From Paramacrobiotus metropolitanus (Eukaryota; Tardigrada; Eutardigrada; Parachela; Macrobiotidae), in contig NW_026570230.1 of NCBI RefSeq assembly GCF_019649055.1, forward strand, positions 1,426,001-1,490,000: a stretch of 64,000 nucleotides of DNA, read 5' to 3'. A model generated the notes under the pieces. That model ran no database searches. It had not been told where the DNA came from and was given only the letters and a program-made list of their open reading frames with translations. A program made the position numbers and the translations under genes. Positions 1 through 16,990 of the stretch are shown piece after piece; position 1 is the first letter of the stretch, and each line of letters opens with the position of its first letter.

Positions 1-200
1 ATCCAAGGTTTACCAATTGCAACTTTAAGCTGGGTGTGGAAGCGCATTTCCATTGGTGGAAGTATAATTTCTGACAAACCGACTTCCCAAGATCCATCTA
101 AATCAATTGGACGAGCTAATTGTGTAATGTAATTACCTGCTCTATTGTCAGGAAACAACTGATGTGACGCCGAACTCGGCAATGACATATAAAAACTCAT
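1..200 (-). CDS. Probable Polinton virion-associated protein, N-terminal part only
   Basis: Sixty-six residues are visible before the window ends. The start, MSFYMSLPSSAS, is followed by a PDNRAGNYITQL stretch and the motif GSWEVGLSEI. I know this pattern (a short N-terminus, then asparagine-rich 'N-x-x-x-xYxxxL' and 'WEVxLxEI') from proteins that recur in animal Polintons and in Hydra and arthropod genome annotations. They are thought to be virion components, but the exact role is not settled. The ATG overlaps the end of the integrase gene by 4 nt, as at other junctions in this array. It is cut by the window edge. Confidence 0.55.
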   Translation of the reverse strand, partial: MSFYMSLPSSASHQLFPDNRAGNYITQLARPIDLDGSWEVGLSEIILPPMEMRFHTQLKVAIGKPW

Positions 201-1213
201 TTTAAATTATCTTTATCCTCCCAAGAACCATAAGCTGGCCCGTAGCCGTACCATCGGACAAGGTACTGCTCTCGTCCTTTATGCTGTCTTGTCTTCAATA
301 TCCGTGATATTTTATGCATTGGGCGCTCCGTCATAATAAATTTCGATAATTCACTTGCATAAAATAAACCATCTACCGGCACACCATTCAAATCAGCGAC
401 TTCATATAAATACATCTTTCCCTTAGAGAAAACATTAATCACTTTAAATATTTCCTCTGTAAAATTTGTTTCATATCCTTTTTCAAACGTCAGTTTTTTC
501 TTTGCAAGTCGTACATAGTCTCCTTGTGTAAATACTGGCTTGGTCTGCCGTTCAAGTTGTTGCTCGTCAATCATTTTCTGTCGAATAATACGTGCTTCGT
601 CTATTCCAACTTCATTAGGTGCAAAGCCTGTTGTTGAGTGTACAGAGTTATTGTACGACTCAATTACATTAGGAAGCACATCAATATACCTATAGGTTTG
701 ATTCTCGGTCATGTATACATGCAAACGCTCTTTGATAGTTCGATTCAGACGCTCGACCATAGCACACTTTATATCATCATTTTTTGTAGTAAAGAAAATA
801 ACACCGTTTTCTTTGAAAAACGTCTGCACTTCCTTTCCAATAAATTCTTTTCCGTTATCGCTCTGGCAGCGATTAGGCGGTCCTTTCTCCTTGTATACAT
901 TAGTAAGTGCAGCAACTATATCTTTAGGTTTTTTGGACGCAACCGGTATTGCCCAAGCATACCGCGAAAAGCAATCGATGCACGTTAACAAGTACCGTAC
1001 CCCATCGTTCTCTTTATGAAATTTCTGCATATCTACAAGGTCGATCTGATGTTGAGCATTCACATCAACACATATAATCTTTCTTCTTTTAAATTTTGAG
1101 CGATACGGTCGGTGCTCCGTATACGTATCCTTTGACAATAGATACCTTTTCACCTGCGCCCTTGTAAATCCATATTTACTGGCTTCGTTGTACAGTCTTT
1201 CGACTCCACCCAA
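197..1213 (-). CDS. Polinton integrase (retroviral-type rve core with C-terminal chromodomain)
   Basis: A 338-residue DDE integrase that would join the linear element to host DNA. The core shows the three acidic positions of the rve family: D in QIDLVDM (about residue 58), D in CQSDNGKEF (about 118) and E in VERLNRTIKERL (about 153). These are followed by YNNSVHSTTGFAP, typical of chromodomain integrases. The C-terminus carries a chromodomain (about residues 300-338) with YLVRWYGYG and SWED, which in this class can direct insertion to particular chromatin. The N-terminal zinc-binding region is short or absent in this reading. It lies downstream of the 383-aa ORF in the same direction and overlaps the following ORF by 4 nt. 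The identification is firm. Confidence 0.93.
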   Translation of the reverse strand: MGGVERLYNEASKYGFTRAQVKRYLLSKDTYTEHRPYRSKFKRRKIICVDVNAQHQIDLVDMQKFHKENDGVRYLLTCIDCFSRYAWAIPVASKKPKDIVAALTNVYKEKGPPNRCQSDNGKEFIGKEVQTFFKENGVIFFTTKNDDIKCAMVERLNRTIKERLHVYMTENQTYRYIDVLPNVIESYNNSVHSTTGFAPNEVGIDEARIIRQKMIDEQQLERQTKPVFTQGDYVRLAKKKLTFEKGYETNFTEEIFKVINVFSKGKMYLYEVADLNGVPVDGLFYASELSKFIMTERPMHKISRILKTRQHKGREQYLVRWYGYGPAYGSWEDKDNLK

Positions 1214-1259
1214 ACTGCCTGGACTGGATGGTCCAGATATAGTTCATCCAGAGAAACCA

Positions 1260-2411
1260 TTATGCATAAGATATCCAGCCAGCGCCGCTTTGGTTATTTG
1301 TTTTCAACTTTTTTAATGGTGGTTGATTCTTCTCTGACCGTTTGGATCGTTTAACAATCTCTTCAGGTTTATGTAATATTGCTGGTACAGCTGTCTTTCT
1401 ATGCGCAATTGAGGGTGTCCTATATGTTAAAGCTTTCATAGCCGTCGGTGCGGGCAAACTGCGCTGTTCGTATGTTAAAGCTTTTCTTAAAGGTGGCGCT
1501 GTAACACTAGGTAGTTCGTATGTCAAAGCGTTCTTGGGAATTGGTGCGGTTAAGCTAGGCTGTTCATATGTCAGTGCCTGAGGTACATGCGACTGTGTAT
1601 AAACAAGCGCTGGTGCAGTATTGCTACTGAGTAACTGCGGCTGGTGGTATGTTAGCGCTTGTGCTGTTACTGCAGGCTGCAGTGATAAATTTTGCGGTAC
1701 GGCTGCTCGAGTGTGGACGGAATGCTCGTCATCGCTGTCTGGCCATTCTACTTGCGGTAGTGGCGCATTGTGAGCCAGCTCTAATGTTGGAGATGGACTG
1801 CGTTTCTCCCAGTAAGACAGTTCTGGCAACGGATTTTGATACGTGATCTGATTGAGTTGATGCGTCATATTCTCTACCGCTGGAACAGTGTTGCCAGTTC
1901 GAAAATTGCGCGGTGGTCTTGGTCTCACACGCACCGGTTTAACCACACCTTTCTTCTCTTTCGATTTGTATACGTGTTTCACAAGAGTTTTTCCCGGAAC
2001 TGGAACGTAACTTGTTATCGGTACTGGGACAGGTACGTCTTTTGTGACGTACTGAGTAATAGGATCGGATTGTATTACTATTGGTGGAGCGTCGACCTGA
2101 GCCTGGTGATCAAATGATTCGGGTTTTGGTCTGTCTATGTATTCAGTTATTGGCTGGGTGTCTACTTGTACTCCGTGGTCTTGTGTTGGCCGCGACTGGA
2201 GTGGTTTGTCCGATACTGGTAAACCCCGTTGTGGTGGTGATGGTGGTGATGCAATCGATTCCGTAGGGATTTTAGCATGCGCCATACGGTTATCATTTTG
2301 TAAATGGCGTTCAACTTCGCTACGTATTTGATAGGACTTTGTCCACGGAGTTGGACATGGTTTTATCACATTGTTGTATTCCGCTTCTGGCACAAGCACG
2401 TAAGTTTTCAT
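1260..2411 (-). CDS. Polinton proline-rich repeat protein of unknown function
   Basis: A 383-residue protein, rich in Pro, Thr and Gln and largely without predicted fold. The C-terminal half holds about six imperfect repeats of an ALTYEQPSLTAP type (about residues 255-345), seen in the DNA as repeats spaced about 60 nt apart between 1400 and 1660. Basic clusters occur near residue 150 (SKEKKGVVKPVRVRPRP) and at the end (KRSKRSEKNQPPLKKLK), which could bind nucleic acid or serve as a nuclear signal. It overlaps the upstream pX-like ORF by 4 nt. Its place between ATPase/pX and integrase suggests a virion or packaging role, which is inference from position only. I do not recognise a family. Confidence 0.6.
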   Translation of the reverse strand: MKTYVLVPEAEYNNVIKPCPTPWTKSYQIRSEVERHLQNDNRMAHAKIPTESIASPPSPPQRGLPVSDKPLQSRPTQDHGVQVDTQPITEYIDRPKPESFDHQAQVDAPPIVIQSDPITQYVTKDVPVPVPITSYVPVPGKTLVKHVYKSKEKKGVVKPVRVRPRPPRNFRTGNTVPAVENMTHQLNQITYQNPLPELSYWEKRSPSPTLELAHNAPLPQVEWPDSDDEHSVHTRAAVPQNLSLQPAVTAQALTYHQPQLLSSNTAPALVYTQSHVPQALTYEQPSLTAPIPKNALTYELPSVTAPPLRKALTYEQRSLPAPTAMKALTYRTPSIAHRKTAVPAILHKPEEIVKRSKRSEKNQPPLKKLKTNNQSGAGWISYA

Positions 2412-2728
2412 TTTGAAATAAATGTGGATAATAATGTTCCAAGGATTGGAAGCAGTGCACTTATAAAACCACCCTTTTGCTGTAAAATCTTTTGCTTTCT
2501 TTTACGTGGTATATCACGGCTGGCCAGACGCTTAATGCTTGTTGCATACTTTTTAGCTAGTGTCAGTTGCGCTTTGCTTAACCCGGTAGGATTTTTCAAC
2601 AGATTCAAACACGCCTCTTCTATTGCATGCAACTGTTTTGTCGTTGACTGTGCAAAATAATTCCTGCGCTGAAGAGGTGTCATAGCCTGCAAAGCTCTAA
2701 CTACGTCAAAAATATCAGCAGGCTTCAT
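2408..2728 (-). CDS. Polinton pX-like small basic virion protein (putative)
   Basis: A 106-residue basic protein. A helical N-terminal half is followed by PRKRKQKILQQKGG and then a hydrophobic, glycine-containing tail (FISALLPILGTLLSTFISK). Basic stretch, 'QKGG', then an apolar glycine/leucine tail is the layout of adenovirus pX/protein VI-like proteins and of the small virion proteins reported from adintoviruses and Polintons. A role in DNA condensation or membrane disruption would follow from that likeness and is not shown here. It overlaps the ATPase gene by 4 nt upstream and the Pro-rich ORF by 4 nt downstream, so the three probably share a transcript. Confidence 0.6.
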   Translation of the reverse strand: MKPADIFDVVRALQAMTPLQRRNYFAQSTTKQLHAIEEACLNLLKNPTGLSKAQLTLAKKYATSIKRLASRDIPRKRKQKILQQKGGFISALLPILGTLLSTFISK

Positions 2729-3423
2729 TGCGTGTATATGCGTCTATGTGTAAACATATGCGACTGTAATCGTAAATTGTCCGGTGTTTCTGAGCGTAAA
2801 TTAACAACTAAATAGCCAAATGGTTCCTTAATGGCCTTTCGGTATGCTTCTTCTAAGTGCTTCATTCCGAGTTGTTTTGCCAAAACACGAATTTGTTGTA
2901 GATCTCGCACAGATTTAAATAAAATTAAGTACTGAGCGTTCAGTGTTATATCGCGCATTGCTTTGCCTTGTTTGAAAAGATTTTGCGACGTAAATATTGC
3001 GGTTATATTCTTGTGGTGAACATCACGAGTAAAAAGAGTTGACGCTTTTACACTGCTTGATAATTCTTCCATTAAATCGTCTAAGATTAGCAAGGTTGGT
3101 TTATTATAATCAAAAAATCCATCATCGAAAAGTTTATTAAATTCAGAAACTAATTCTATTGATGGAGGGAATTCCTTGAACTCATTCTGCCACGTTCCGT
3201 ATGCGTAGACAATGCGCTTGGGGCACGGGTAGAAATATTTTTCTGGAGCTTTCAATAGTTCTACTATTAAAGTAGATTTCCCGGACATGGTTGGACCACT
3301 TACGTAAACCGAACACGGGGTTTTAAATCTTAAATCAAAGCGGATACGTTCCATTTCTGAGTTTCCGTTTACTTTATCGAGTATATAAACATATTGATTC
3401 AGTTTTCCCCGCTTAATGAGCAA
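2725..3423 (-). CDS. Polinton genome-packaging ATPase (FtsK/HerA, A32-like)
   Basis: A 232-residue P-loop ATPase expected to drive DNA into the capsid. Walker A is SGPTMSGKSTLI (about residues 42-53). Walker B is PTLLILDDLMEEL (about 107-119). A sensor-like asparagine follows in IFTSQNLFKQGK, which is typical of A32/Polinton ATPases. Its length fits the family. The start ATG lies 8 nt below an upstream module that also occurs before the TBP-like gene (see 3431-3507 and 5167-5244). It heads a run of 4-nt-overlapping ORFs (ATPase, pX-like, Pro-rich). Confidence 0.9.
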   Translation of the reverse strand: MLIKRGKLNQYVYILDKVNGNSEMERIRFDLRFKTPCSVYVSGPTMSGKSTLIVELLKAPEKYFYPCPKRIVYAYGTWQNEFKEFPPSIELVSEFNKLFDDGFFDYNKPTLLILDDLMEELSSSVKASTLFTRDVHHKNITAIFTSQNLFKQGKAMRDITLNAQYLILFKSVRDLQQIRVLAKQLGMKHLEEAYRKAIKEPFGYLVVNLRSETPDNLRLQSHMFTHRRIYTQ

Positions 3424-3430
3424 ATGACCA

Positions 3431-3507
3431 AAACAGCAACGAGTTCAACCTGGCCGAAGACAAGTTAAACCCGCCACAGTTTTGGGGCATGGCCCTCTTT
3501 TTTTTGG
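3431..3507 (-). promoter_or_regulatory. Repeated upstream module, copy 1 (before the packaging ATPase)
   Basis: About 77 bp that aligns with 5167-5244 at roughly 80% identity. Shared on the plus strand are CCTGGCCG(A/T)AGACAAG, then TTTGGGGCA, then GCCCTC followed by a run of T ending in GG. On the coding strand it reads as an A-run, GAGGGC, TGCCCCAAA and CTTGTC. It ends 8 nt before the ATPase ATG. The repeat is seen directly. A promoter role is inferred from its position before two separate genes. Confidence 0.6.
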
Positions 3508-3678
3508 AACAGTTTTAGAGTTATTTATCTAATAATTCCAAGCCAAAGAAAGTACAAAAATTTCTAGAAAGAAAACACAATTTTAACAACTGTTTGCATG
3601 GTAATGCTATACAGTGAACGAAGATTTAATGTCTGAAAAACGGTTAAGAAAATCTCCCAAAACAACGGCGCCAATGAT

Positions 3679-4060
3679 CTAAAAATGACAGTATAATTCT
3701 GAAAATGTAGGAGTTTTACCAAACCAATCAAACAAATCCATTTCCATATTGTCCGTGCAAGCCGGACTCTGAACGATTTGGTCCACAGAACTAAGAGAAT
3801 CGTCTGTTTGCAGCTCTTCCTTCGTAGCAGCTGCAGTGTCTTGGACCTTTTCAAACCATTCAAATAAGTCTTCACTTTCACCAACGCAGGGCGGGCTTAG
3901 AACGATTTGGTCTACCCAAGCAAGAGGGTCGTCTGTCTGCGCAGTTTCTTTGGTATCGGCTACAGTGTCCTGGACTCTTTCAAACCAATCAAATAAATCT
4001 TCATCTTCTGCAGTACACATTGGGCTAAGAACAATTTCGTCCACCCACGCCAGATGATCT
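3679..4060 (-). repeat. Three in-frame 129-nt repeats coding acidic DLFDWF modules
   Basis: The 3' part of the TBP-like gene is a tandem array with a 129-nt period. It is made of two full units, DHLAWVDEIVLSP...QTD and DPLAWVDQIVLSP...QTD, and a shortened third, DSLSSVDQIVQSP...DLFDWFGK. Each 43-residue unit carries an aromatic core in an acidic context (DLF[DE]WF). This resembles acidic activation motifs that bind Mediator, TFIID or histone acetyltransferase surfaces. The repeat structure is seen directly. Activation function is inference. Confidence 0.75.
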
Positions 4061-4983
4061 TCAGTGGTGGTATTCACCTCAGTCTTACCCGGTTCGTTTA
4101 CGCAGTCTTTCGCAGGCAAAATTTCATTGTCTAAAATTGTAATCCATTGATCCAAATCACTGTTGTCTTCCACTTTTAGTAGTTGGGATGGCTCAGTTTC
4201 GGTTGGCTCTAAATCCGTTCGGTCTGGTTGAGTTGTACTTTGTGCGCTTGGAGGTGCCGTCTTCTGCTTAACCGGTCTCGAGCTATCTGGTTCTGATGCT
4301 TGTCTCTTACGTTTCCCAGTCTTTGCTTTGGCATTGTCGACTGCCTTAGTTGTTTCGACCGGTTCAGATTCTAAAATCTCCTTATCAAAATCAGCAAACC
4401 ATTTCTCCCATTCATGCGTGTTCAACGATTTCCGATTTCTACGTGGTGGTGGTGGAGGCATTTCAGCTCCAGGAGGAGGCGGATGCGCTGGTAATGTAGC
4501 TTTGAGACGGGCAATGCATTCTTCCACAGCTTTTACTGTCTTGGCGCCCATGATCACACATTTGCCGGTACTGAAGACTTTCACTGTGGTTCCAAGATCC
4601 TCGTAACGCAATTGAACATTATCAATTCGCTCCGGTTCATACCATAGCTTGTTTGCGGATGCAAACTTAAACAGATTTATCGGAAATTCTTGCTGATGTG
4701 TAGCCATAATATTTGCGGTCTTCTTATCCAAGATGTTAGCAGAGTAACCCAAATGCGTTAAACGTGCCCGATAACGTTTGACAAGATTACGCACTTCCAG
4801 TTCATTTGATCCACCGTTAATGATCACTTTCCCAGATCTAAAGACCTGAATGTAACTTCCGTCTTTGGATGTAAGAATAACTGCATTAAAATCTTTAACA
4901 GGGCGAGAAGCTGTTGATCGAGTTATATGTCTCAAATCAAACTGGCAGTCGAACGTTAGGACAGTAATAATGTGGTGAATCAT
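3679..4983 (-). CDS. TBP-like protein with C-terminal acidic repeats, encoded by the Polinton
   Basis: A 434-residue ORF. Residues 1 to about 165 align by eye with both halves of the TATA-binding-protein saddle. Repeat 1 has FNAVIL and VFRSGKVIINGG, then RARLTHLGYSANILDKK. Repeat 2 has FPINL, WYEPE, LRYEDLG, and KVFSTGKCVIMGAK. These match the TBP signatures F-SSGK-V-TGAK, LGF-AKFLDFK, FPIRLE and YEPELFPGL. The phenylalanine before SGK/TGK, one of the DNA-kinking positions in TBP, is kept in both halves. A proline run (PPPPGAEMPPPPPR), a basic NLS-like stretch (GKRKRQ) and then about three 43-residue acidic repeats with DLFDWF follow. It would bind promoter DNA in the nucleus, recruiting Pol II machinery. 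Divergence from cellular TBP is large, so origin from a viral lineage or an old capture is open. Confidence 0.8.
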   Translation of the reverse strand: MIHHIITVLTFDCQFDLRHITRSTASRPVKDFNAVILTSKDGSYIQVFRSGKVIINGGSNELEVRNLVKRYRARLTHLGYSANILDKKTANIMATHQQEFPINLFKFASANKLWYEPERIDNVQLRYEDLGTTVKVFSTGKCVIMGAKTVKAVEECIARLKATLPAHPPPPGAEMPPPPPRRNRKSLNTHEWEKWFADFDKEILESEPVETTKAVDNAKAKTGKRKRQASEPDSSRPVKQKTAPPSAQSTTQPDRTDLEPTETEPSQLLKVEDNSDLDQWITILDNEILPAKDCVNEPGKTEVNTTTEDHLAWVDEIVLSPMCTAEDEDLFDWFERVQDTVADTKETAQTDDPLAWVDQIVLSPPCVGESEDLFEWFEKVQDTAAATKEELQTDDSLSSVDQIVQSPACTDNMEMDLFDWFGKTPTFSELYCHF

Positions 4984-5076
4984 TTTAGCAAAAGATATTC
5001 AAAACTTCGAAACAGGAAAAGTTGAAACTAAAAGATTGGTTTGGTTTCCCGAAGCTACATGTACTTTTAGCAGTAT

Positions 5077-5098
5077 TTTTCTTAAGGACTTCTGTCAC
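5077..5098 (-). promoter_or_regulatory. Conserved 22-bp upstream box, copy A (TBP-like gene)
   Basis: Plus-strand TTTTCTTAAGGACTTCTGTC(AC). This is one of four copies of the box TTTTCT(C/T)GTAGACTTCTG(T/C)CAC. It lies 94 nt before the TBP-like ATG and downstream of the copy 2 module at 5167-5244. It is the most diverged copy in its left half. Confidence 0.6.
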
Positions 5099-5166
5099 TG
5101 CAAATTGACCACTGTCCAGACAAAAAGGCGTTAAGATTTCACCCAGCAGCCAATGAGTGTATCCCA

Positions 5167-5244
5167 AAACCGCAATGCTTTCAGCCTGGCCGTAGACAAG
5201 CTAAGAGAAATGCAGATTTGGGGCAACGCCCTCTTTTTTTTTGG
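5167..5244 (-). promoter_or_regulatory. Repeated upstream module, copy 2 (before the TBP-like gene)
   Basis: This copy partners 3431-3507 at about 80% identity over about 78 bp. It shares CCTGGCCGTAGACAAG and the ATTTGGGGCA..GCCCTC plus T-run block. It lies 184-261 nt upstream of the TBP-like ATG, and box copy A lies between. The two modules make this the most elaborate upstream region in the element. Confidence 0.6.
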
Positions 5245-5325
5245 CTTTTCTATTTGTCTATACTAGATGCTGTTGTACGAATCTATTTAGTGTATATTAC
5301 CTGACAGTGAGGGAAAAAAGTGGTA

Positions 5326-7313
5326 CTGTAGCCGCTAGATGAAGTGGCTCCACAGAGTCTGGTGTACGAGAAAAGGCACGACGTATATACATACGCTGAA
5401 TTGAATAAAAAAATTGAATTTTTGCTGCATTTTTGATTTTCAGTCATTTTAACAGGTTTTTGAACCAAAATTGTGTACCTGAGCTTGATTTTATAGTGAA
5501 TAATTGCATTTCGGCTGTGGATAGTATTTGAATCAGAGCTCTAATTTGTCGAAATGGGCCGTAAGCAGCGTAGTTATACAGAGGAACAGATTCGAGCATT
5601 TCTGATCGGTTTTGCTGCCGCTGATGTGAGCGCACGGAGTTACGCAAATAACATCGGAGTTCCATGGAGAACTTTCACGCGCTGGAAAAGGTACAGCTAG
5701 ATTTTTAATTTATTATCTACTTGCGTGTTTTTGAAAGCAGCCAGTCTACCTGCAGCAGGTTGAAGAAGAACGAGCCTCTTCGAAAGCAGAAACACAAGCG
5801 AAAGCCGGAGCACTCAGACATAGAGGACGCCTTGTACGAATTTCTCCTGGCCGAACGGAAGAAGGGTCTTATTGTGACACGTCTGGAGCTGAAAAAAAGA
5901 GCGCTAGAATTAGCCCAGGCGAAAGGAGCTCCTACCTTCAAGGCTTCAGACTGTTGGCTTACTTGCTTTTTGAGGAGAAAGTGCCTGCGATATCGTGTCC
6001 CAACTCGACATGCTCGCAAGTCTGAATTCACGGAGGAAGATCTGGTAAGTTGAATTTTTTTAACATTATAAATGAGAGCTCTGACAATTTTCTAAAAAAC
6101 AGGAAGAAGAGCTGGAGTATTTTCTCCGCTTACACAATTCCATCGTTCTGGATGAAACTCCCGCTGACCGCGTATTCAATTTCGATCAGACGATGATTCG
6201 CCTTGTAGCGCCGAAACCGAAAACACTTTCTCCCATTGGAGTGAAAGAAGTAATTCTATAGCTTTTAATCAATTTATAACAAACATTTATAACAAAAGTT
6301 ATGAGAATTGTGAGAGCTCTGATATTTTATTAATTTATTGAATCTGGTTTGTTGTGCTTTTTGGGGTGCCCCTGGCCACCGGGGGGGGGGTGGTTCCTCT
6401 GGAAAGCTGACTGTGAACGGCTTTGCAGGTTACTGTTAAACAGCCTCCTGGCGAAAAAGAAGGAATAACTGTGTCTTTAACGATCCGTGCGGATGGAGGA
6501 AAATATCCTGCTGTAGTGGTGCTAAAGGGGGGAAAGAATGGGAAGCTGTCAGAAGGGATAATGAACAAGCTGAAAGTTCCTCCTAATATTTTTGTTGAGA
6601 GCTCTTACTCTACTTGGTGGACGGAGCAGATGGATCTGGACTGGATAAAGTATACATTTCCCGAAGAAAAGCAAAAGCGTGTTTTAGTTCGAGACCAGGC
6701 ACCGGTCCACAAAAAAGAACCATCGGAGCTCCTACTTAGAGAACGAAATGTCGAGCAAATCTTCGTGCCTGCTGGTCGCACAGGCGATTATCAGCCCCTT
6801 GACGTCAGCGTTAACAAAGCAATGAAGGCCTCTTTTCGTAGCGAATATCAGCTTTGGCGAGCAACTCATCATGAAGTAACAAAATCGGGATATCTGAAGA
6901 AGCCAGGGCGCCAAGACTTCCTGGATATGATCTCTCGTGCATGGCAAAGCGTAACCCCAGATCTTGTCCGTAAATCGTTTTTCGCTGCTCAGGTGCTTAA
7001 GAATGATGACCGAGATCATGATTATGAGAGCTCTGAAAATGATTATGAGAGCTCTGAAATGGATAAGGAAAATCTAGTTGATGAAAGCGATTCTGAAATG
7101 GAGATTAGTTTATTCAGTGATAGTATTTTAGAGAGTGATGGTACCTGTGAGATAGAAAACGGTTTACCAAAGTAAAAGAGTACTAAAATAAAATGAATAA
7201 AATAAACTTTACGTGTGCGCTGCCCGTTGGCGGTAAGCACCGTGCTCAATGCCCGACGAGGGGAAGGCAGCGCCCGGATCTAACAGTGGAGCCACTTCAT
7301 CTAGCGGCTACAG
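5326..7313 (+). mobile_element. Pogo-like (Tc1/mariner superfamily) DNA transposon, complete, inserted in the Polinton
   Basis: A 1988-bp element with perfect 28-bp terminal inverted repeats beginning CTGTAGCCGCTAGATGAAGT, flanked by TA on both sides (5324-5325 and 7314-7315), the pogo/mariner target duplication. It carries one plus-strand transposase gene of four exons with an AATAAA cluster just after its stop codon. Perfect ends and an open transposase point to a recent insertion. It sits between the 146-aa ORF at 7350 and the TBP-like promoter region, facing against the Polinton genes. Six copies of the palindrome AGAGCTCT are scattered along its length (see findings). Confidence 0.92.
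5554..7175 (+). CDS. Pogo-like transposase (psq HTH, CENP-B-type HTH, DDE), four exons
   Basis: Exons I infer: 5554-5690, 5741-6044, 6103-6249 and 6429-7175. All have GT-AG borders and phases that fit (2, 0, 0). The start MGRKQRSYTEEQIRAFLIG is a psq-type helix-turn-helix. Exon 2 (SDIEDALYEFLLAERKKG) fits the CENP-B/Tigger second HTH. The catalytic triad is visible as D in FNFDQT, D in VRDQAPVH and D in DYQPLDVSVNK, as in pogo/jerky families. The C-terminus is acidic and carries two DYESSE repeats produced by the AGAGCTCT sites. No in-frame stop was seen, so it may be functional. Expected role: cut-and-paste transposition at TA sites in the nucleus. Confidence 0.87.
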
Positions 7314-7349
7314 TATTTTTACTGCTTTCATGCTAACATAATAGAAGAA

Positions 7350-7790
7350 CTAATTATTTGAAATCAACTGAGAGAGAAGGTTGCACACGCTCCGAAAATT
7401 CCGATATGCAAAAGTTACTGAGCGGCCTTCGTGGTTAAATGAAACCATTCGACCAAACATGCAGTGGTATGCCAGCTTCACATCAATGACATCATCTTTG
7501 GCGTTTCGGATTACCGTATGCGTATTTCGGTCTTCTACGGAGGCTTTATCGAGTAATTTGCGGATTTCTCCATTGTTAAGCAAGATGAGGAGATTATTGA
7601 TGGCTGGTAAATCCAAAATGAAACCGCGATTCCCCGCCTCAGAGTAAGCTTCCGGAGTTGGCGAGGTGCAGCGTGCAAAAAGGGCGGTCTTTGGATCTGT
7701 ATCAAACCATACAAAACAGACTTTAGTGACTCTGTAACATTTAACCGTACCCGCCTGCGAAACGAATTCTAATTGAGGAAAATTATCCAT
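7350..7790 (-). CDS. Polinton accessory protein, 146 aa, paralogue of the ORF at 8837-9277
   Basis: No named family recognised. From about residue 55 it aligns with the 146-aa ORF at 8837-9277. Shared positions include a leading R with hydrophobics, LLD-A (KLLDKASVEDR against DLLDTAILKNR), the pair THTVI/THLIL, an acidic D-D-D patch, VTF/VRF and a closing LxxL helix. The pattern of beta strands, a helix, then strands might suit a small DNA-binding fold such as PC4/Sub1. That is only a suggestion from layout. The ATG lies 84 nt below conserved box copy B. It is the last accessory gene before the transposon insertion. Confidence 0.6.
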   Translation of the reverse strand: MDNFPQLEFVSQAGTVKCYRVTKVCFVWFDTDPKTALFARCTSPTPEAYSEAGNRGFILDLPAINNLLILLNNGEIRKLLDKASVEDRNTHTVIRNAKDDVIDVKLAYHCMFGRMVSFNHEGRSVTFAYRNFRSVCNLLSQLISNN

Positions 7791-7873
7791 TTTCTGGTAT
7801 TGATTAAGTTAATATCTAGCAATGATCATAGCTTTACAAACGAAAGTGAGCTTCCTTAACGTCTACAACATAC

Positions 7874-7895
7874 ATTTTCTGGTAGACTTCTGACC
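7874..7895 (-). promoter_or_regulatory. Conserved 22-bp upstream box, copy B (146-aa ORF at 7350)
   Basis: Plus-strand TTTTCTGGTAGACTTCTGAC, 84 nt before the ATG at 7790. The similarity extends leftward (CAACATACATTTTCT here, CAACATATACTTTCT at copy D). It lies just past the stop codon of the BIR gene. Confidence 0.6.
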
Positions 7896-7911
7896 ATACG
7901 ATGTCACCTCG

Positions 7912-8394
7912 TTAGCGAGGAGGATGCATAAAACACGGACCATCGATAACGTCACCAGTTGGCCCTTCCTCCATGTTACAACTGCAGTACCCGCCAAAAC
8001 TGAAGACTTTACGATTCCAGCGTTTAAGTGTCCATTCACTGCAAGAATCTGCCGCTTCCAATACTCCGTTGATGAACTGTGTGTCAACAACTGTACGCAA
8101 ATGATCGCAAAGTGGACGATTAAGTGCATGGTGAACATTGATGTCCTCAAACGGAAGTAAATCTTCCAAACCCAGACCGCAGGCATAACAGTAGATACGC
8201 CCCATACCCACACAATAAAAACCTGCTGCCGCTAGCTCTGCTGGTTTGAGACCAGGAAAACTCGAAAAATGGCCGAAAAATGATGCGACGCGCTTATCGT
8301 TATTCTGCATGTTTAAATTGTAAATTAAAGTATAATCTTGATAATCATTTCGCAGCTCAGTAAATGTGGGTGTCAAATCACTTTCTGTAGCCAT
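7912..8394 (-). CDS. BIR-domain protein (IAP-like), Polinton accessory gene
   Basis: A 160-residue protein with one BIR domain at about residues 38-100. RVASFFGHFSSFPG (R-x-x-[ST]F) is followed by AELAAAGFYCVGM and then the zinc ligands in the exact BIR spacing C-x2-C-x16-H-x6-C (CYAC, second H of VHH, RPLC). No RING finger follows. The C-terminus instead has a short Cys-rich tail (YCSCN). BIR proteins bind caspases or IAP antagonists, and dsDNA viruses use them to delay cell death. That role in the host cytoplasm is inferred. The ATG lies 105 nt below box copy C, with a TATAAAG sequence further upstream on the same strand. Confidence 0.85.
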   Translation of the reverse strand: MATESDLTPTFTELRNDYQDYTLIYNLNMQNNDKRVASFFGHFSSFPGLKPAELAAAGFYCVGMGRIYCYACGLGLEDLLPFEDINVHHALNRPLCDHLRTVVDTQFINGVLEAADSCSEWTLKRWNRKVFSFGGYCSCNMEEGPTGDVIDGPCFMHPPR

Positions 8395-8498
8395 TTTAAC
8401 AATACCTGTCGAATATTACACTGAATAAACGCGCGAGTGGCAAGCAGTTGTGATACCTTGTTGCTTGCGTGACAGCTCCTTAGTGCAATAAACTATAC

Positions 8499-8521
8499 TT
8501 TTCTTCGTAGACTTCTGCCAC
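8499..8521 (-). promoter_or_regulatory. Conserved 22-bp upstream box, copy C (BIR gene)
   Basis: Plus-strand TTTTCTTCGTAGACTTCTGC(CAC), 105 nt before the BIR ATG. On the coding strand a CCTATAAAGG TATA-like sequence lies about 40 nt upstream of it. The box ends in AGAAAAGTATAG, which could also read as a 5' splice site. Confidence 0.6.
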
Positions 8522-8526
8522 AGAGT

Positions 8527-8606
8527 AAGAAAACCCAAACTGCAGCCAGACCAGATCGCCTTTATAGGACAATTTAGCACAACCGCAGATTGGGGTTTTT
8601 TTTCTC
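8527..8606 (-). promoter_or_regulatory. Degenerate third copy of the upstream module
   Basis: This region keeps GCAGATT(T)GGGG followed by a T-run with CTC, a weak GCC-GACC block and an overall spacing like the modules at 3431 and 5167. Similarity is much lower than between those two. It is upstream of the BIR gene and box copy C. Confidence 0.35.
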
Positions 8607-8830
8607 TTTCTTTTCTTTTTTTTTTAAATATTTTTTCCATTTTTTTTAAACCATTTTTTAAGCAGCTTTTTTCAGTTTATTTCGATTTTTTTTTACCCCT
8701 TTTTTTTTATTTTTTTCGAGTTTTTTTATTTTTTTTTCTGCATTTTTTATTTTAGCTTTTTTTTTCTCCATTTTTAAATAATATTTTAAGTACAACATGC
8801 TGTAAAAAAAATAATCATGCAAATTATCAA
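8590..8830. repeat. T-rich low-complexity tract
   Basis: About 240 bp of runs of 5-10 T broken by single other bases (plus strand), between the BIR gene and the 146-aa ORF. On the coding strand it is A-rich. It may be a polyadenylation or nucleosome-free region, or slippage-prone filler. No coding signal. Confidence 0.8.
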
Positions 8831-8836
8831 ATTTAT

Positions 8837-9277
8837 TTACAGAGCATCAGGAGAAGGAGAAGGACAGCAGAACGATTCCAGAGCGGCAAACATATCATGA
8901 AATTTCTTATGCGAAAATCTTACGGTCGTTCTATTTTTCTTTTGCTTAAAAAAGATACAACAAAATTTTCCAGCTTTAAAGGAAATATCAAGTTCGTCGT
9001 CGTCATTACCGTCGCCTTTAAGAATAAGATGCGTCGGTCTGTTCTTCAAAATGGCAGTATCCAAAAGGTCCTGGATAGTATGATTGGCAATGGCCTGGAA
9101 AATCTGACGAAGAATATGACTGGATAATTCCATAGCAGTATATACATAGCGTTGGTCTCCTTCTGTCGAAAATATGCGGCAAAAGGTGACAGCTTGCGTC
9201 TTCTTATGAAATCCAACATAACGCTCGTCTTTAAAATTGAACCACTTCGTCGTAGCATCTTCGAGGAAAACTTTCAT
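8837..9277 (-). CDS. Polinton accessory protein, 146 aa, paralogue of the ORF at 7350-7790
   Basis: Same length as and related to the ORF at 7350-7790 (see there). The N-terminal part, TKWFNFKDERYVGFHKKTQA followed by VTFCRIFSTEGDQRYVYTAM and a long helix, is strand-hairpin-strand-helix. This is loosely like the ssDNA-binding PC4 fold, but I see no decisive motif. The middle has an acidic GDGNDDDELD loop and the end is Cys/Pro-rich. The two genes flank the BIR gene, so the block is paralogue, BIR, paralogue. Duplication followed by divergence is inferred. Confidence 0.6.
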   Translation of the reverse strand: MKVFLEDATTKWFNFKDERYVGFHKKTQAVTFCRIFSTEGDQRYVYTAMELSSHILRQIFQAIANHTIQDLLDTAILKNRPTHLILKGDGNDDDELDISFKAGKFCCIFFKQKKNRTTVRFSHKKFHDMFAALESFCCPSPSPDAL

Positions 9278-9446
9278 GGTTGTGGCTCGTTATCAAACAC
9301 GCTCAAACTGGCAAAAAGGAATCACTCGACCGGCTGAGACGCTGGCTGGGTTTGGTCTAACTACAGAACACAAGAACCAACAATGTAAAGACTACTGCTT
9401 CATCCTAAGCGAGTATGCTTAACTGCTTCATGCTCTGCAACATATA

Positions 9447-9468
9447 CTTTCTCGTAAACTTCTGTCAC
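9447..9468 (-). promoter_or_regulatory. Conserved 22-bp upstream box, copy D (146-aa ORF at 8837)
   Basis: Plus-strand ACTTTCTCGTAAACTTCTGT(CAC), about 170 nt before the ATG at 9277. On the coding strand GTATATATTGCC, TATA-like, lies about 30 nt upstream. It overlaps the extreme 3' end of the PolB region. Confidence 0.6.
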
Positions 9469-12400
9469 GTTAAAAGTCTCAGCTGGCAATATATACGTAC
9501 CACGCTTTTCAAACCAAAAGGGGCGGTACGAAAATCATCCAAAAGGATCCGCTTATCATAGACCAGTCGCAAGTGCTTGGTAAGCTTCACCGTACAGATC
9601 TCTTGTGTTTTCACATTACGGGTAATGTGTTGCGGATACACAATCTGCAAAAAAAAATAGTGAAATAATGCCTCTGTAGTATTAAACCACATAACAAGAA
9701 CGTGCAATAAACTTGTATTAACCTTCATTGAATTTCGGTCTTTGAGCAGTGTCTCCAATGCGTCGAAGTTCAACTCGCGACCGGTTCGGACCATTTCTTC
9801 GTCCAAGATGTCTTCCGTGTATCCATTCTGGGTAAGCCCCTTCACTTTCAATTCAACGCGACCTGTGTCGGTCTCGTAGCTGTAAACTTTGGGACCGCAA
9901 GAAACAAATCGGACAATATGAGATTCCCCGGGCTTAAGCTCATTCGTCCATTTTCCAAGACCACATCCTGACTCGGGGAGCCAATCGCCGTCTTTATGAA
10001 CGAAGATAACGGAATCCGTGTCGTAATATAACAACCGCTCCCCAAGACGATTCATGGTCTCAAGAAGCTTTAAGCGAGCATGGCTGGTCGTAAAAGCAGC
10101 GATGGCGACATTCACACCGTCACTGCCTTCGTTATATTCATCCCGCTTTGCGTAGGTGACCATCATACAGTGCGGCGTCACAGCGTGTATGCTGAAGATG
10201 TCAAAGGCTTCGGATCGCAATAAATCGTGAAATTCCTTCGGTGAATAGATAAAACGCGTTTGATGTAGATTATCTCTTTGTCCAAATTTCCCCCAGAAAG
10301 AATTGAGCATAAGCTTTGCTACGGCACGGCGGGCAGGGTTATCCTCAACTTTGTGGTATTCTAGACGGATTCCATCACGCTTAAATACTTCTTCGATGTA
10401 GGCGCGCTTCTGTTCTTCTGTACTACAGTTGACGGGGAAGCCGCTCGCTTCAATCTTTTCCTTCAAAAACATGTTCACGTAGTCTTCGAATAATCCGGAT
10501 CGTCTTTCCGGCCAATGCCATACTTCATACGTTTCAACCACTTTGTATCCTTTTGCTATCGCGTAGTTGAGTTCTGGGGTACACCAGACGCCATCAATAC
10601 ATCGTTCCTGGTCTGTGTGTGGACAGTAATCATTCCTGCACTGCTTGGCGCACTCACCGCATAAAGCGAACATCAACTTGCCGTTTATCGTCGTTGGCAG
10701 CACAGGATAGCGCAGTCGTTCAGGTGGAAGAACTTTACAGTGAACAAACCCAAAGTACTCCGTGACTGGTTTAAAATTAGACACGATGATATCAGGATGG
10801 CCAATAGGATACTCTGCCGTCTTGTTCACAAAAGGATACAACGAAACGATATCGTAATGCAGTATCTTTTCTCCTTCTTCGACCACTTTGTATAGTCGTG
10901 AAGCGTTGGTGCGACCGCCTTTAAAGGCATTTCTTGGTTGCAAAGGATCACGCAAGTTCTGATTGAGGATAAACTGCGCAATGTCCGGATCCTTTCTCTC
11001 TTTCAACCATTCACAGGACCACTTGACTTCGACTTTCAGGTTACGGCTTTTCAGGTATGCTTCCTTCTCTTTCCACTCTTCATAAACTTCCCGCATAGTT
11101 TTGTTTGAATATGGAGCACGATCTTCCTCTTCTGTGCATTCCGGATGTCCATGATGAACACAGCCGTTATATTCGTAAACCGTTTTTGCTGGTTTATCGT
11201 AGCCATCCACAAAATATCGACCAACTCTAGCTTCTTTTCCAGCACGACCATGCTCTATGCCCGGGTGATCCATCTTTTCCCATTCCAACCATTGCGTAGC
11301 TTCCATACTTGTTCTCCGGTTTGCCTGATAACCGTTCCCGGAAATTACAGCGATTTCATTTGGCTTCAGAAGTTGGGTTTGATAATATTTCTTGCAGGCA
11401 GATGCTATCGTAACACTGGCAAAGGGGTCAATTTTCGTCATATTAAGGAAGTTCTGGCGGAATCTTAGTGCGCATTTCCTTAATATGGTGACGTCCTGAG
11501 AGCAATACGATGCCATTTCTTGCCGAAAATCGAACAAACCTAAAAAGTTTAAAAAAAATTAAAAGAATTGAACGTTTTGTTTTGTAAAAGAAATTAGATA
11601 CTTTCTAAAACATTACCTTTTTTCGTTGTTTTTCTTCTGCGTGCCACTGTTCAAATTCTCTTCGCGACTTCCTGTTGAGCCCTTCATACATGTACTTGTC
11701 CGTATTCGGAAACGGAACGACTTTGTCGAAATTTTCAGGATGACTGAGCCCATGGGGAAACGTTCCCTTTTCTTCGCATTCATCTAAACCAACAGCCTTC
11801 GGAAACGCCGACAACTTTGTCATCACAAAATTCAATGTATCTCGAGCGTTCATATCCAACGCCGGATATCTGATGTCCAGAAGTTGACTTCCCCGCCTTA
11901 TTACTTCCACACCTTTTAAGTTGTTCTCCAAAAGGTATGATAGTAGAAAGTGTCCGTCATAGCCACGCAGGTTATGTGCAATGAGTGTGAAACCCCGGTG
12001 CTTTTCAGAGTAAACCCATTGGCCAAATTCTTTTTGCACATCGTAACCTTCCATTGGTGTCCCGTCGGGCGGGAACCGAAACTCCTGCCCGTCCACATAC
12101 TGGGCAACAACATAACACGGCCTATGCACGCCGTCCGCATCCTGGTAGGTTTCGTAATCGAAATATATGTGCTGCGGCGTCGATGGATATACTCGACTTT
12201 CGACTGGCTTCATGAAGCAGCGGTGCGATTGTAGCACCCACTCTTTACAGATTCCGCAATACATCTCATCACATACATGCTTCTGGCCAGGTCGTCGCAG
12301 TAGACTAACGAACTTGTTACAGGACCCACAAACAAAAAGCTGTTCGCAAAAGGTCAGCTGGTTTTTTCTAGGCTTTTCGTGTAGTTCAAGACATTTCCGG

Positions 12401-13788
12401 TTGTTAAAGGTGCGGCCGCAGTTGTTACAAAAAACCTTCTCCTCTTCAACACATTTATCTTTACTGCGATAACATCCATTGCAAATGTTTTGGCACCTGT
12501 GACGCTCTTTGTGGTCGTGTGGGAGGTCACATTCGTGACAACAGTAACCACGTCTGTGAAATCCTGATGGTTTCGTAATTAGGTCGAAATGGTCGTCCTC
12601 ATGTAAGATATAGATTATCTTACGACTGCCACGCTTTTCAGGATAGCGGGCAATCACTTGATTCAAGGTGGAAGCGGAAACCACTTTAATTTGGAAGTTC
12701 TTTAACACGGTCGTTTGGAAACGCGGGATATCGGCAATTCCGAACTTGTCTCCAACCGTAAGACCAACCTTTTTTACCAATTCTTCCGCTTCATTTTGCA
12801 AGCGTTTGCAGCGACTGTCAGTTAGGACTTTCCAGGCTTTCTTATCTTTGTGAACAGCGTTATGATATTTACCAAGGATAAGGCAGGCGGGCAGGCACAA
12901 ATTCTTTTTGACTTTCACTTGCACAATAGACTTGCTCCATTTTTTCCGATCAAAGGAAGAATGGATATGCTTCCGTGGCGTTGCACCACCTCTTGGAAGC
13001 GCAACATGTGTAACCCGAACATAAAAGCTTTCGTCAATGCAAAGCTTATCTCCGGAATTGACCAACGAAACAATCTGCATTATATCTTCAACGCGTAAAT
13101 TTTCCAATTTTCGGATAGGAACGTAAATAGCGCGTTTCTCAGATTCGAGCGCGGAACTACTAATCTCCAATCCGACTTTGTCATCTTTATGGAAACCTTC
13201 GGTGCATAAACGCAGAACTTCTTCCAACGCGTCCGGCAGTACGAGAATCGACGTAGGACCGTCGAATTTAGCCGGTAAGTTTTGAAAATGCGTCCTCCAA
13301 TAAACCTTCGATTGGCCCCATTGTCGGTTGGCCGCTCTACCATCCCTATGCAACTCGAACACGTTGCTCCAGTCATACTTAACGGGAACTGCTGCTGGAA
13401 CTATCAAATTTCGCGTTGTCTGGTCGGCGATTGGTGCATACCCGTTCAGATCTTCCGTAACCAGATCTCCTTCCTCGACATTTGGCTGCCCTGTAGTCGA
13501 AGTGGCACCACCATCTTGATCGGTTTCCATGGGAAATATCTCTTGACTCTGGGCAATGGGTAGCGGTTGCACGATTATGGGGACGAGTTCTCCGTTTGGC
13601 ACCGCTTCGCTGTTTTGGGCAACTTGAGCCGCGAGGGCATCTGGATCTATTGTATCCCAGTCCATTCCACCGGATGGAAAATCCATCTCCTCCGATGTGG
13701 CAACGGATGATGGCGGCGACTCATACATGTCAAAATTGAATCCGTCATTTGCAAAAGGATCCATTCCTTTTACAAGTTTCTCCGGCAT
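9465..13788 (-). CDS. Polinton protein-primed DNA polymerase B (PolB) region
   Basis: The polymerase core of the element. Motifs in order along the minus strand are: a Cys/His-rich zinc-finger region (CCHECDLPHDHKERHRC and following CxxC pairs), Exo I FDYETY, Exo II LIAHNLRGYDGHF, Exo III YCSQDVTIL, Pol A DIVSLYPF, Pol B KLMLNSFWGKFG and Pol C YYDTDSVIF. These are the signatures of protein-primed family B enzymes, which start replication on a terminal protein at linear ends. The coding sequence occupies more than one open block. Splicing or decay cannot be told apart here. Downstream of its end lies box copy D. Confidence 0.92.
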
Positions 13789-13849
13789 TATTTTCCTAAA
13801 AAAGTTGGCTAGATGTAAAACAGCGGTATAAATTAGCTTAAGTTCTGAC

Positions 13850-15166
13850 TTACCTGTTCTTAGTCATGAAATCCATCAGCCGATCCGACATAAGGCTCAT
13901 CAAGTAGCTCCCACCCATGTAGTTCTGCACAAGATCAGCTACGTTGTCACGTTCTTCTCTGTTTTTCGGCTTGTTGAGTCGGAATGCGTCGTCCACAGTG
14001 TAGTCGCTAGCCTTTTTTAGCAACAGGTCCATGCTCTTTTCGCTGTCAAACTGAAAGAAAATAAATTAAAACTTATTCAGAAATTGTACAAGTGCGAATT
14101 TGATAAAAATAGCCTACGTTGTGCAGGACGTTGGTAATAAAGAGGCGCGATAGGCAATAGCAAGAATCTTGCAGGTAATCACCATCTTGCTGGAGGTTAT
14201 AGCTGTTCAGCGGCTTTGGCGGTCGGTCTTCCCATCGGTCATCACCAAAACGATCCAATAAATCTGGATGTTTGCGCGCTTTTTTACGGATAGCTTGAAG
14301 CAGAGCACTGACAATCACTTCGTGTCCGGGGCTTTCACCACAAGAGTCAAAAACGAAACATTTGACTTTGGCGTCTGCAAACGCATTATAAACTGGTTTA
14401 CATCATCAATTTAGGTTAAGAAAAAAACGTAAGCCTTACACGTAGCAACGATGCATAAGACACACATATGGCTGAATTGATCGCGTTGCGATGCTGTACA
14501 GATAACAAGAGGAATGACGAGAACATTCGACCGCGACAGCTCCACAAGAAACTCTCTCAAGGTAAGCCCCATACTGTTGGTCAACAATTGCAAATTCCAT
14601 TCGTCGGTATATTGGCGGCTCTTGTAATCGACATTATACTTGAACGCATCGTGTGCCTTGGCTAAACGCACACCGAGCGTTTTGGCTAGTGCGTTATGGA
14701 ATCCATCTTCAAAGTGCATAAACTCCAACGGGGGACACTGGAAGTGTGATAAGGCCAGGTATGCCTTCTCTGTGGTGGTTTTGTCCTTTGCGTAAAACTG
14801 GTCGAGCTGATCGCGCGCGAATGGGCAGCCGTTGAAAAGGTGTGATGGAAGGCGGGATGGTTCGACAACGAGCAGACAGCATGGGCATTTTGGTACCAGC
14901 GAGAGTAGGACGGGGTCTGGCAGCGACTTCTGGAATAGTGGCTTTTTCTTTCGGATTCCGGTAGCCAGAACCTTTTTCCGGTCCATCGTTCTAAACATAG
15001 GAAGCATATGCATTCTGAGTATATAGGTGTGTGCAAACTGGTGCGTATTAAAGCGTAGAAGAGCGGGACAGAGTGGCATGGCGCTGAGTAGTGCCTTCAC
15101 AGTGTACACATAGTGCGGTTCGCACAACCGTTGATGTTGTTGAGGAAGCCGCAGAGTTTTGATCAC
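13850..15166 (-). CDS. Unrecognised Polinton gene(s) upstream of PolB
   Basis: Several open blocks on the minus strand before PolB. The most upstream contains a Cys-rich finger (KCPCCLLVVEPSRLPSHL followed by NGCPF) and a basic DRKKVLATGIRKKKP stretch. Later blocks are helical and charged (NKPKNREERDNVADLVQNYM). They could be an N-terminal extension of the polymerase gene, such as a terminal-protein region, or a separate gene. I do not recognise a family. Donor- and acceptor-like sites flank some blocks, so splicing is possible. Confidence 0.4.
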
Positions 15167-15959
15167 TACTGCATATTGCGGGCAGGGCGTGGGATATTAC
15201 GGGCACATCGTGGGCACGGCGTGGGATCGAACAATGTACTAGTACATATACAGTAAAATACTGTGATAAATACACTGTATTACGAGGTTACCGTTCGCAG
15301 TTTGCATTAGACGTTGGGTAACTGCATTATGCACCCGTAGCGTTTCTACACAGCTGCAGAAGCGGTGTGGTACAATAGACTGCTGAAACCCGATGCAAAG
15401 ACGGCGTCGCATCAGGCCAGCAGACATACTGGTGCATGTGCAGTATATTATATGTAGTTGGCACATTGTACGGCTCTAGCTATTGTATACTGCGGTGTGG
15501 CCGACGCGCCACCTGATACTGTGCGGTAAGGCCGGCTGCATCCGGAAGCGCAGCGCTGCGCGGCGATGTCGTGGGAATGCGCTAGCTTGCACACTGTGTA
15601 CAGTGTTAAGCAAAGAAGGGGGGGGGCCTCCTGGCTGATGTGTAGTTACCTAACACTGATTACACAGCTTGGTTAGTGTGACATCATATTTGCAACCGAC
15701 GCGTTGCGGGCACCACCATCAGACACAGTACGTGTGTAGTACGCAATACCCACGGCATCTGTTATGCACAATGTGTTTAGGGCCACCGTGGACTTCTCGG
15801 ATGCAGCACCGGTGTGTGGTGAGCAACAACAGACGCGGTGCGCCCATGCCGTGCAGTGTGGTACAGTATGATTGGTACCGCCGCGGACGTGGCGCATGCA
15901 GCTACAGCTAGCGACCGGCGCGTGTTTGTCATGTACAGGATGGTACAGTGTGATTAGCA

Positions 15960-16900
15960 CCACCAGCGAGTGCAACCAGCAGCCGGTGTGCAACCAGTAA
16001 CCGGTGTGCGAATACCGTCCACGGTGCATGGACGTCGTGGGTGTAGCAGCCGGGGTTGTGTGGGGATACCGTGCACGGTGTGGCAAATGCGAACACCGTC
16101 TTGGACGCCGCGGGCGGGTGTGAGGTGTGTGCAGCCGGCGCACGGCGTGCGGATGCCGTCCACTTTGCGTGGACGTTTGTGGGTGCAGCAGCTGGTGTTG
16201 CGTGGGCATGCCGTGCACGGTGGTGCTACTGCAAACACCGCCGTGGACGTCGCAGGGGCGGGTGTGTGGTGAGGGCATGCCGCGCACGGCATGTGTACTG
16301 TTAATACCACCGTGCACGCTCTGAGTGCAGCCGGCGTACCGTGTGCGGATGCTGTCTACGATGCGTGAACGTCGCTGGCGTAGCAGCTGGGGTTGTGTGG
16401 GAATGCCTGCACGGTGTGGCCATTGCGAACACCACGATAAACATCGCGGGGCGGGTGTGTGGGGCGCACGTCCACGTCCACGTTGGGTGAATGTTGCGGG
16501 TGCAGCAGCCGGTGCTGTGCACAGTGGCGCAACTGCGTACACCACCGTGGACGACGCGGGGCGGGTGTGTGGGGCGGCCGTCGTCGTCCACGTTGGGCGG
16601 ATGTTGCGGGAGCAGCAGCCGGTGTTGTGTGGTGTGCCGTGCACAGTGGCGCAACTGCGTACACCGCCGTGGACGTCGCGGGGCGGGTGTGTGGGGCGGC
16701 CGTCGTCGTCCACGTTGGGCGGATGTTGCGGGAGCAGCAGCCGGTGTTGTGTGGTGTGCCGTGCACAGTGGCGCAACTGCGTACACCGCCGTGGACGTCG
16801 CGGGGCGGGTGTGTGGGGCGGCCGTGCACAGTGGCGCAACGGCGAACACCGCCGTGGACGACGCTGGGGCGGGTGTGTGTGAATGTGTGGTGTGCGGATG
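15960..16900. repeat. GC-rich degenerate minisatellite, 122-bp period
   Basis: Two near-identical full 122-bp units start at 16547 and 16669. A shortened unit (about 63 bp) starts at 16791 and increasingly diverged units run leftward to about 15.96 kb. Units contain GTGGACGTCGCGGGGCGGGT, GCAGCAGCCGGTGTTGTG and CCGTGCACAGTGGCGCAAC. The array is rich in CpG and in GCAC/GTGC palindromes. It leaves long open frames on both strands that repeat the same peptides. It lies at the outer side of the Polinton and may be part of a terminal repeat. Confidence 0.85.
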
Positions 16901-16990
16901 CCGTCCAGTTGCTAGGAAACGTTGTTGGTGCTGCTGTCAGTTTCACCGCCGTTGAGAACAGTATCTTATACTGTGTGGCAGTCGATGCAT

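Follow-up and report, generated by a model that had tools for sequence, protein, structure and literature searches.

A TATA-binding protein with a changed DNA-reading face is a standing gene of Polintons in the tardigrade Paramacrobiotus metropolitanus

The TATA-binding protein (TBP) is a standing, selected gene of several Polinton lineages in the genome of Paramacrobiotus metropolitanus, and in these element-borne proteins the residues that bend DNA and contact TFIIB are largely retained while the base-reading face is systematically changed. The reading we favor, at a probability of roughly 0.6, is that an element TBP of altered specificity recruits host TFIIB and RNA polymerase II (Pol II) to element promoters. 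The evidence comes from a 64,000-nucleotide stretch of contig NW_026570230.1, hereafter the window, and from searches of the genome as a whole (169.8 Mb in 533 contigs).

The gene lies at positions 3679–4983 on the minus strand, a 434-codon open frame from its ATG exactly where an earlier note on this DNA had placed it, and the TBP-saddle motifs quoted there are all found in the translation in the order given. The Pfam TBP profile (PF00352) matches the 434-aa protein significantly in two stretches (E = 9.7e-23; bit score 80.3, cut-off 22.9), PDB TBPs align to residues 3–155 (best E = 4.9e-13), and ten NCBIfam archaeal TBP models match as well, the best at 2.1e-15 and all under their own strict cut-offs. 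A profile made from seven element copies retrieves 35 distinct PDB sequences (best 3.2e-23), which are named as TBP, as TFIID or TFIIIB constructs with TBP, or as the ECU04_1440 protein. For the TBP core, residues 1–163 with two repeats (4495–4983, minus strand), AlphaFold2 run on a 36-sequence alignment gives a mean pLDDT of 92.1 and a pTM of 0.81, and the predicted order of strand, helix, three strands and helix occurs twice, the saddle fold being judged by element order only. The C-terminal extension, residues 166–434 (3682–4488, minus strand), is acidic, with 58 D/E vs. 25 K/R overall and 33 vs. 5 in residues 301–434, and contains three DLF(D/E)WF motifs, at residues 329, 372, and 416, features by which the tail may resemble an activation domain.

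The element around the gene is a Polinton of ~24.5 kb, of which positions 1–19169 fall within the window and ~5.4 kb continue leftward into the adjoining stretch (L009). Its right terminal inverted repeat of 126 bp (19044–19169) has its partner at L009 2638–2763; the two are 100% identical over 127 aligned bases, which the target duplication trims to 126, and that 6-bp duplication, TACAAA, can be read from the flanks (19170–19175). Downstream of TBP the minus strand encodes a P-loop ATPase of presumed packaging type with the motif GPTMSGKS (2725–3423), conserved proteins of 106 aa (O2408, 2408–2728) and of 383 aa (O1260, 1260–2411; of unknown function and without Pfam match, but at the same place in the compared elements), and an integrase with rve and chromodomain (INT, 197–1213; PF00665 4.1e-14, PF00385 4.2e-8). 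Upstream of TBP, on the same strand, follow a 146-aa protein (O7350, 7350–7790), a BIR (inhibitor-of-apoptosis) domain protein (7912–8394; PF00653 4.5e-7), another 146-aa protein (O8837, 8837–9277), a family B DNA polymerase of presumed protein-primed type (PolB, 9465–13788; PF03175 5.6e-34 and 3.4e-7) in two open frames (11605–13788 and 9465–11537), and, upstream of PolB, a 251-aa frame (O14411, 14411–15166); O2408, O7350, O8837, and O14411 are recognized as conserved by synteny. Between TBP and O7350, the next Polinton gene, sits a nested DNA transposon of ~2 kb with perfect 30-bp inverted repeats (5324–7315, plus strand), whose ORF at 6423–7175 looks DDE/Tigger-like by eye only. The packaging assignment of the ATPase draws on weak AAA matches of the window protein, a Pox_A32 match of 0.024 in L028, and a conserved place, with at least 150 scored homologous places. 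To the left of the window lie genes resembling those for penton, pX, a 450-aa major capsid protein (MCP), and a protease, labels taken from place, size, and sub-threshold matches. The adenain-like protease candidates match Peptidase_C5 at 4.5e-4 in L028, just under the cut-off, and at 0.037 in the window element, and compare with the S273R protease structure at 0.0023. The MCP-like gene occupies the expected capsid place and is without a Pfam capsid match; other capsid comparisons are weak (a DJR-like domain at 0.067 in L015 and, in the PDB, only Scone-E at 0.047). The earlier note's picture of a two-half TBP saddle inside a Polinton, on the strand that carries INT, ATPase, BIR, and PolB, is thus borne out by family match, predicted fold, terminal repeats, and target duplication, together with the synteny of several copies described below.

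Some further features of the element deserve mention. Several short proteins of 135–156 aa (window 7350–7790 and 8837–9277; L009 2895–4554) may belong to one very divergent family; a PC4-like identity for the short 135–160-aa proteins was considered and is unsupported by profile comparison, the alignment used being poor. A stretch with long overlapping ORFs in several frames at 15673–16995, with a GC of 0.52 over 16001–18000, is probably repetitive.

The gene order O14411-PolB-O8837-BIR-O7350-TBP-ATPase-O2408-O1260-INT recurs at eight more places in the genome, on contigs C19, C27, C201, C44, C17, C133, C29, and C62. Identity exceeds 90% in the closest copies and elsewhere is ~50–80% for most proteins and 25–48% for O14411 and O1260. 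Interruptions affect several of these copies, and the C62 element has lost or rearranged O14411 along with most of PolB; a copy on C19 has PolB as one long open frame, as opposed to the two of the window element. Two merged searches, with 97 of 272 candidates scored in one and 150 of 493 in the other, yield at least 181 TBP-like loci genome-wide, host TBP and fragments included, and most of the listed copies have uninterrupted frames. Set against at least 179 ATPase and at least 79 PolB loci at a distance of 16 kb, totals and links alike being lower bounds, an ATPase homolog lies within 16 kb of at least 147 of the 181 TBP loci, where 6.0 would be expected by chance; counting ATPase or PolB raises this to at least 155, and adding PC4 (see below) to at least 165, so that among the matches listed 16 loci are unlinked to any of the three, one of them being the host TBP. 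Three main arrangements account for TBP and ATPase: ATPase directly downstream of TBP in the same orientation (at least 62 loci), 6–16 kb upstream on the same strand (at least 43), and divergent at less than 1.5 kb (at least 34); at L029 the coordinates place the first ATGs of the two genes in one shared CATG. The TBP core has dN/dS values of 0.042–0.337 in 11 of 14 chosen pairs, the other three being dS-saturated.

Several observations concern the neighborhood of these copies. The BIR gene is a standing neighbor of TBP across the compared elements, its domain scoring 2.6e-21 in the element on C81, and the public gene model P0153, "XIAP-like [Paramacrobiotus metropolitanus]", fuses a Polinton TBP start to the BIR gene. 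A similar-looking gene of 152–170 aa, with no significant Pfam match, stands directly upstream of TBP at L027 4844–5302 and L028 1575–2087, and a SAP-domain protein (L029 501–1034; PF02037 9.3e-11) is encoded near a Polinton TBP on C5. On C36 a 2.8-kb inverted repeat (99.5% identity; L170/L171) and on C13 a 3.3-kb one (99.8%; L172/L173) carry the TBP region at both ends.

What sets the element proteins apart becomes visible when 50 element-type rows are compared with 40 cellular TBP rows (Arabidopsis numbering throughout). Eight columns, 72, 74, 80, 82, 116, 161, 171, and 173, are fixed differently at thresholds of >80% and >70%, the element-type substitutions including L72Q (47/50), F74Y (38/50), V80T (38/50), T82N (48/50), V161T (44/50), V171N (38/50), and T173L (46/50). 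Six of the eight fall on 15 positions that we take as DNA contacts (hypergeometric p = 0.0097 over 46 conserved columns, a guide only because the compared rows are related). Conservation is equally marked: N117 and F165 are present in all 50 rows, N27 in 46, and F57 and F148 in 48 each, so that Phe at the four intercalating positions 57, 74, 148, and 165 is found in 48, 12 (with Tyr in the other 38), 48, and 50 rows. Glu146 is present in the window copy, as it is in 47 of the 50 rows. In PMC10005294 the four Phe are named as DNA-contact residues and E146 is described as the main TFIIB contact. Lineage I, which includes the window copy, keeps F74 and is mostly hydrophobic at 80 and 171, and lineages II and III and the Meta rows (see below) mostly have Y, T, and N at these positions. 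The window copy itself departs at two contact positions, with I at F148 (leaving three of the four Phe) and H at N27; because of these two changes and a polymerase split into two frames, it may be decaying or differently specialized.

A second transcription-related gene accompanies TBP in some of the lineages. In the C81 element a gene for a protein of 237 aa (L028 2355–3068) matches the transcription coactivator PC4 (PF02229; 1.9e-8, 34.1 bits vs. 25), and at many loci this gene is divergent from TBP. Genome-wide there are at least 122 PC4 matches at no fewer than 107 loci. Among the 107 loci listed, 58 lie less than 3 kb from an opposite-strand TBP gene and 70 within 16 kb of TBP (3.6 expected), 37 having no listed TBP in 16 kb; a search of the window lineage for PC4 found none. 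TFIIB (PF00382) gives six matches at three loci genome-wide, on contigs C45, C100, and C28, where no TBP, ATPase, or PC4 appears among the matches listed. No TFIIB expansion matching that of TBP was detected genome-wide with PF00382, a profile that a divergent TFIIB could escape; the elements, in which TBP and PC4 have multiplied, show no TFIIB visible to this profile.

Together, the kept bending and TFIIB-contact residues, the changed face, purifying selection, and PC4 linkage suggest that the element TBP would direct Pol II assembly to the element's own promoters, as the earlier note had proposed. Where a TATATAAAG box precedes the TBP gene, host TBP would turn the element TBP on first; the latter would then bind element promoters of a different sequence, bending them as cellular TBP does, and on those promoters would recruit host TFIIB and Pol II, with the element's own PC4 helping in PC4-bearing elements. 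The tightly packed capsid module would be the likely late target, and such a working mode would be like that of the beta/gamma-herpesvirus TBP, presumably reached independently. More tentatively, and at somewhat less than even odds, we envisage a partly separate transcription start in animal Polintons, in which a TBP of altered specificity would read promoters that host TBP does not, aided by PC4 or, in the window lineage, by the DLFxWF tail, with host TFIIB and Pol II retained and a two-stage early/late program accommodated in ~25 kb.

Candidate promoter motifs bear on this scheme. Among 17 upstream regions, TATATAAAG stands ~47 nt before the TBP ATG in five copies of two arrangement-I lineages, and TATAAAAAGG is found upstream of the C201 copy, so that 6 of the 17 copies have a canonical TATA box ahead of TBP, the window copy not among them. 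When the genome was scanned for TATATAAAG at this spacing upstream of the start peptide, 60 matches came up, and none for the reversed control; because the search selects for the motif, the 60 matches speak of spread, not conservation. In the window lineage a different candidate element, the CAGAAGTC box, occurs 76–122 nt before five genes, namely TBP, BIR, and three small genes: at 5087–5094 (minus strand), ~110 nt before the TBP start, with further boxes at 7885–7892 before the 146-aa gene and at 8510–8517 before the BIR gene. The motif is weak against whole-window shuffles (5 in the window vs. a mean of 1.63, with 2 of 100 shuffles reaching as many), and of the two other copies in the window one falls within coding sequence (14925) and one beyond the element (61935). 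When the motif was lengthened and one mismatch allowed, it occurred 4 times vs. a mean of 0.98, matched by 1 of 100 shuffles. In the upstream regions TGTAAA was considered as a late motif and has no consistent placement by eye, nor could a motif other than TATA be established for the remaining Polinton genes.

The same residues can be read in other ways. Retention of E146 in 47 of 50 rows alongside changed base-reading residues would also suit a decoy that titrates host TFIIB or sits on host promoters and so damps host transcription, and the proximity of TBP to a BIR gene, with its likely host-directed function, fits such interference; a pure TFIIB sponge, however, would have no need of the DNA-facing residues, of which N117 and F165 are invariant in all 50 rows, nor does the co-location of a PC4 coactivator gene at many loci favor it, and we regard it as unlikely. 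Somewhat less probable still is a role in replication or packaging, with the element TBP binding and bending origins or terminal repeats instead of serving transcription. The presence of the TBP region in the near-identical 2.8- and 3.3-kb inverted repeats of C36 and C13 would be in keeping with this, as would PC4, since PC4-like proteins also bind single-stranded DNA. Replication would not, however, require conservation of the TFIIB-contact residue, and protein-primed replication is not known to depend on TBP.

A third question is whether the element genes are simply host TBPs. The host has its own TBP gene at C4:406165–406662, on another contig than the window Polinton, and the protein is 86–90% identical to 120 listed rows, those named by organism being animal TBPs. 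A search for SL1 RNA, taken as a marker of nematodes, gave no match, its control being uninformative. The earlier note had allowed for a host TBP exon captured by assembly error; the recurrence of gene and neighborhood in other copies, with the host TBP elsewhere, rules out such a misplaced exon. Against 5.8 billion proteins, the 434-aa window query returned 4294 candidates and none at E ≤ 0.001, and the 172-aa TBP of the C81 element returned 32 matches of 69 candidates, 2 of them from P. metropolitanus and 30 from jgi, ena, lgn, and src, mostly on short contigs. We label these 30 "Meta"; they may be metagenomes or other-animal assemblies and are known from their TBP sequences alone. In IMG/VR neither of two TBP alignments found relatives, and neither did the MCP-like protein or the C part of PolB. 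A tree of 90 TBPs was built from 23 element copies, 27 of these 32 relatives (rows shorter than 160 aa being dropped), 13 animal, 3 other eukaryotic, and 24 archaeal sequences, the last hand-picked from 77 loci with a match. In the best tree a branch with support 100/100, to be read with a long-branch warning, divides the 40 cellular from the 50 element-type rows; eukaryotic TBPs cluster at 95/92 and archaeal ones at 90/98, and Meta rows interleave with element rows. The best topology places element-type TBPs outside the sampled eukaryotic and archaeal groups, but AU tests do not reject their grouping with animal TBPs (p = 0.377) or with the host TBP (p = 0.366), and a close capture of host TBP is accordingly disfavored by the best tree and yet not rejected by the tests. 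That the copies are ordinary TRF-like host paralogs, or captured host copies hitch-hiking functionless in Polintons, could draw on these unrejected groupings but is the least probable reading: frames are uninterrupted in most listed copies, Polinton genes flank at least 165 of the 181 loci, the sampled copies are under purifying selection, and the best tree puts them outside the sampled eukaryotic TBPs.

If the element TBP does recruit host TFIIB and Pol II to the element's own promoters, then a small, animal virus-like element carries a Pol II promoter-recognition protein, a gene reported from large DNA viruses, and staged gene expression in Polintons and adintoviruses becomes testable. One genome would also offer more than 100 natural TBP variants in which base-reading residues have changed and the frame has been kept, material for work on how TBP specificity changes. 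The relatives in other sequence collections, known from TBP sequences alone, suggest a gene that extends beyond a single assembly.

Like cellular TBPs and TRFs, the element proteins have the two-repeat fold, mostly keep the bending Phe and central Asn, and retain Glu146 in 47 of 50 rows; unlike them, they are element-borne, have changed base-reading residues, and in the best tree branch apart from cellular TBPs. A yeast TBP mutant that reads TGTAAA reportedly carries the substitutions I194F, V203T, and L205V, and we take V161T and L163V to be the equivalents of the latter two. By this list the element-type rows resemble the mutant at the V203T-equivalent (44/50) and L205V-equivalent (35/50) positions and differ from it at the I194 position, where S, R, T, K, or Q predominate and F never occurs. 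The passage of PMC10005294 on a triple second-repeat mutant that reads TGTAAA leaves its residues unnamed; we found no paper naming the substitutions.

One viral comparison is with ORF24 of KSHV which, according to PMC12529657, relies on a polar DNA face comprising four Phe and six Asn, reads TATTWAA late promoters, and is without the TFIIB-contacting Glu residues. The face of the element TBPs has changed in the same general way, polar and Asn-enriched; unlike ORF24 as portrayed there, they keep E146 in 47 of 50 rows, and because of this we do not file them as herpesvirus vTBPs. Among other viruses, PMC10132985 reports that 59% of mirusvirus genomes encode TBP. PMC7221094 counts 107 dsDNA virus genomes with TBP-like sequences and reports a TFIIB-like gene in almost all TBP-bearing viruses except poxviruses, and a TBP is also reported for the giant virus Megavirus chilensis (PMC11464507) and for CpV-BQ1 (PMC12085832). 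With mirusviruses, giant viruses, and other large dsDNA viruses the elements share a TBP encoded by a virus-type element; unlike those viruses, as these accounts describe them, they measure ~24.5 kb and have no detected TFIIB expansion. PMC10675990 also discusses, together with mirusviruses, elements that carry TBP but lack DNA polymerase and double jelly-roll genes.

For Polintons, Mavericks, and adintoviruses, we found no report of a TBP, with or without reference to tardigrades, among the open-licence PMC papers listed; in the passages covered, PMC11071308 has no mention of TATA or TBP, PMC12220804 has them in its references only, PMC8547959 has nothing, and PMC7786948 is unrelated. The earlier note's impression that none is known in Polintons or adintoviruses agrees with the literature on that scope. 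Like Polintons/Mavericks and adintoviruses, the elements combine PolB and integrase with a presumed packaging ATPase, a candidate adenain-like protease, and an MCP-like gene (the last three recognized by weak matches or place), terminal inverted repeats, and a 6-bp target duplication; unlike those described in the papers covered, they have a standing TBP gene, joined in some lineages by PC4.
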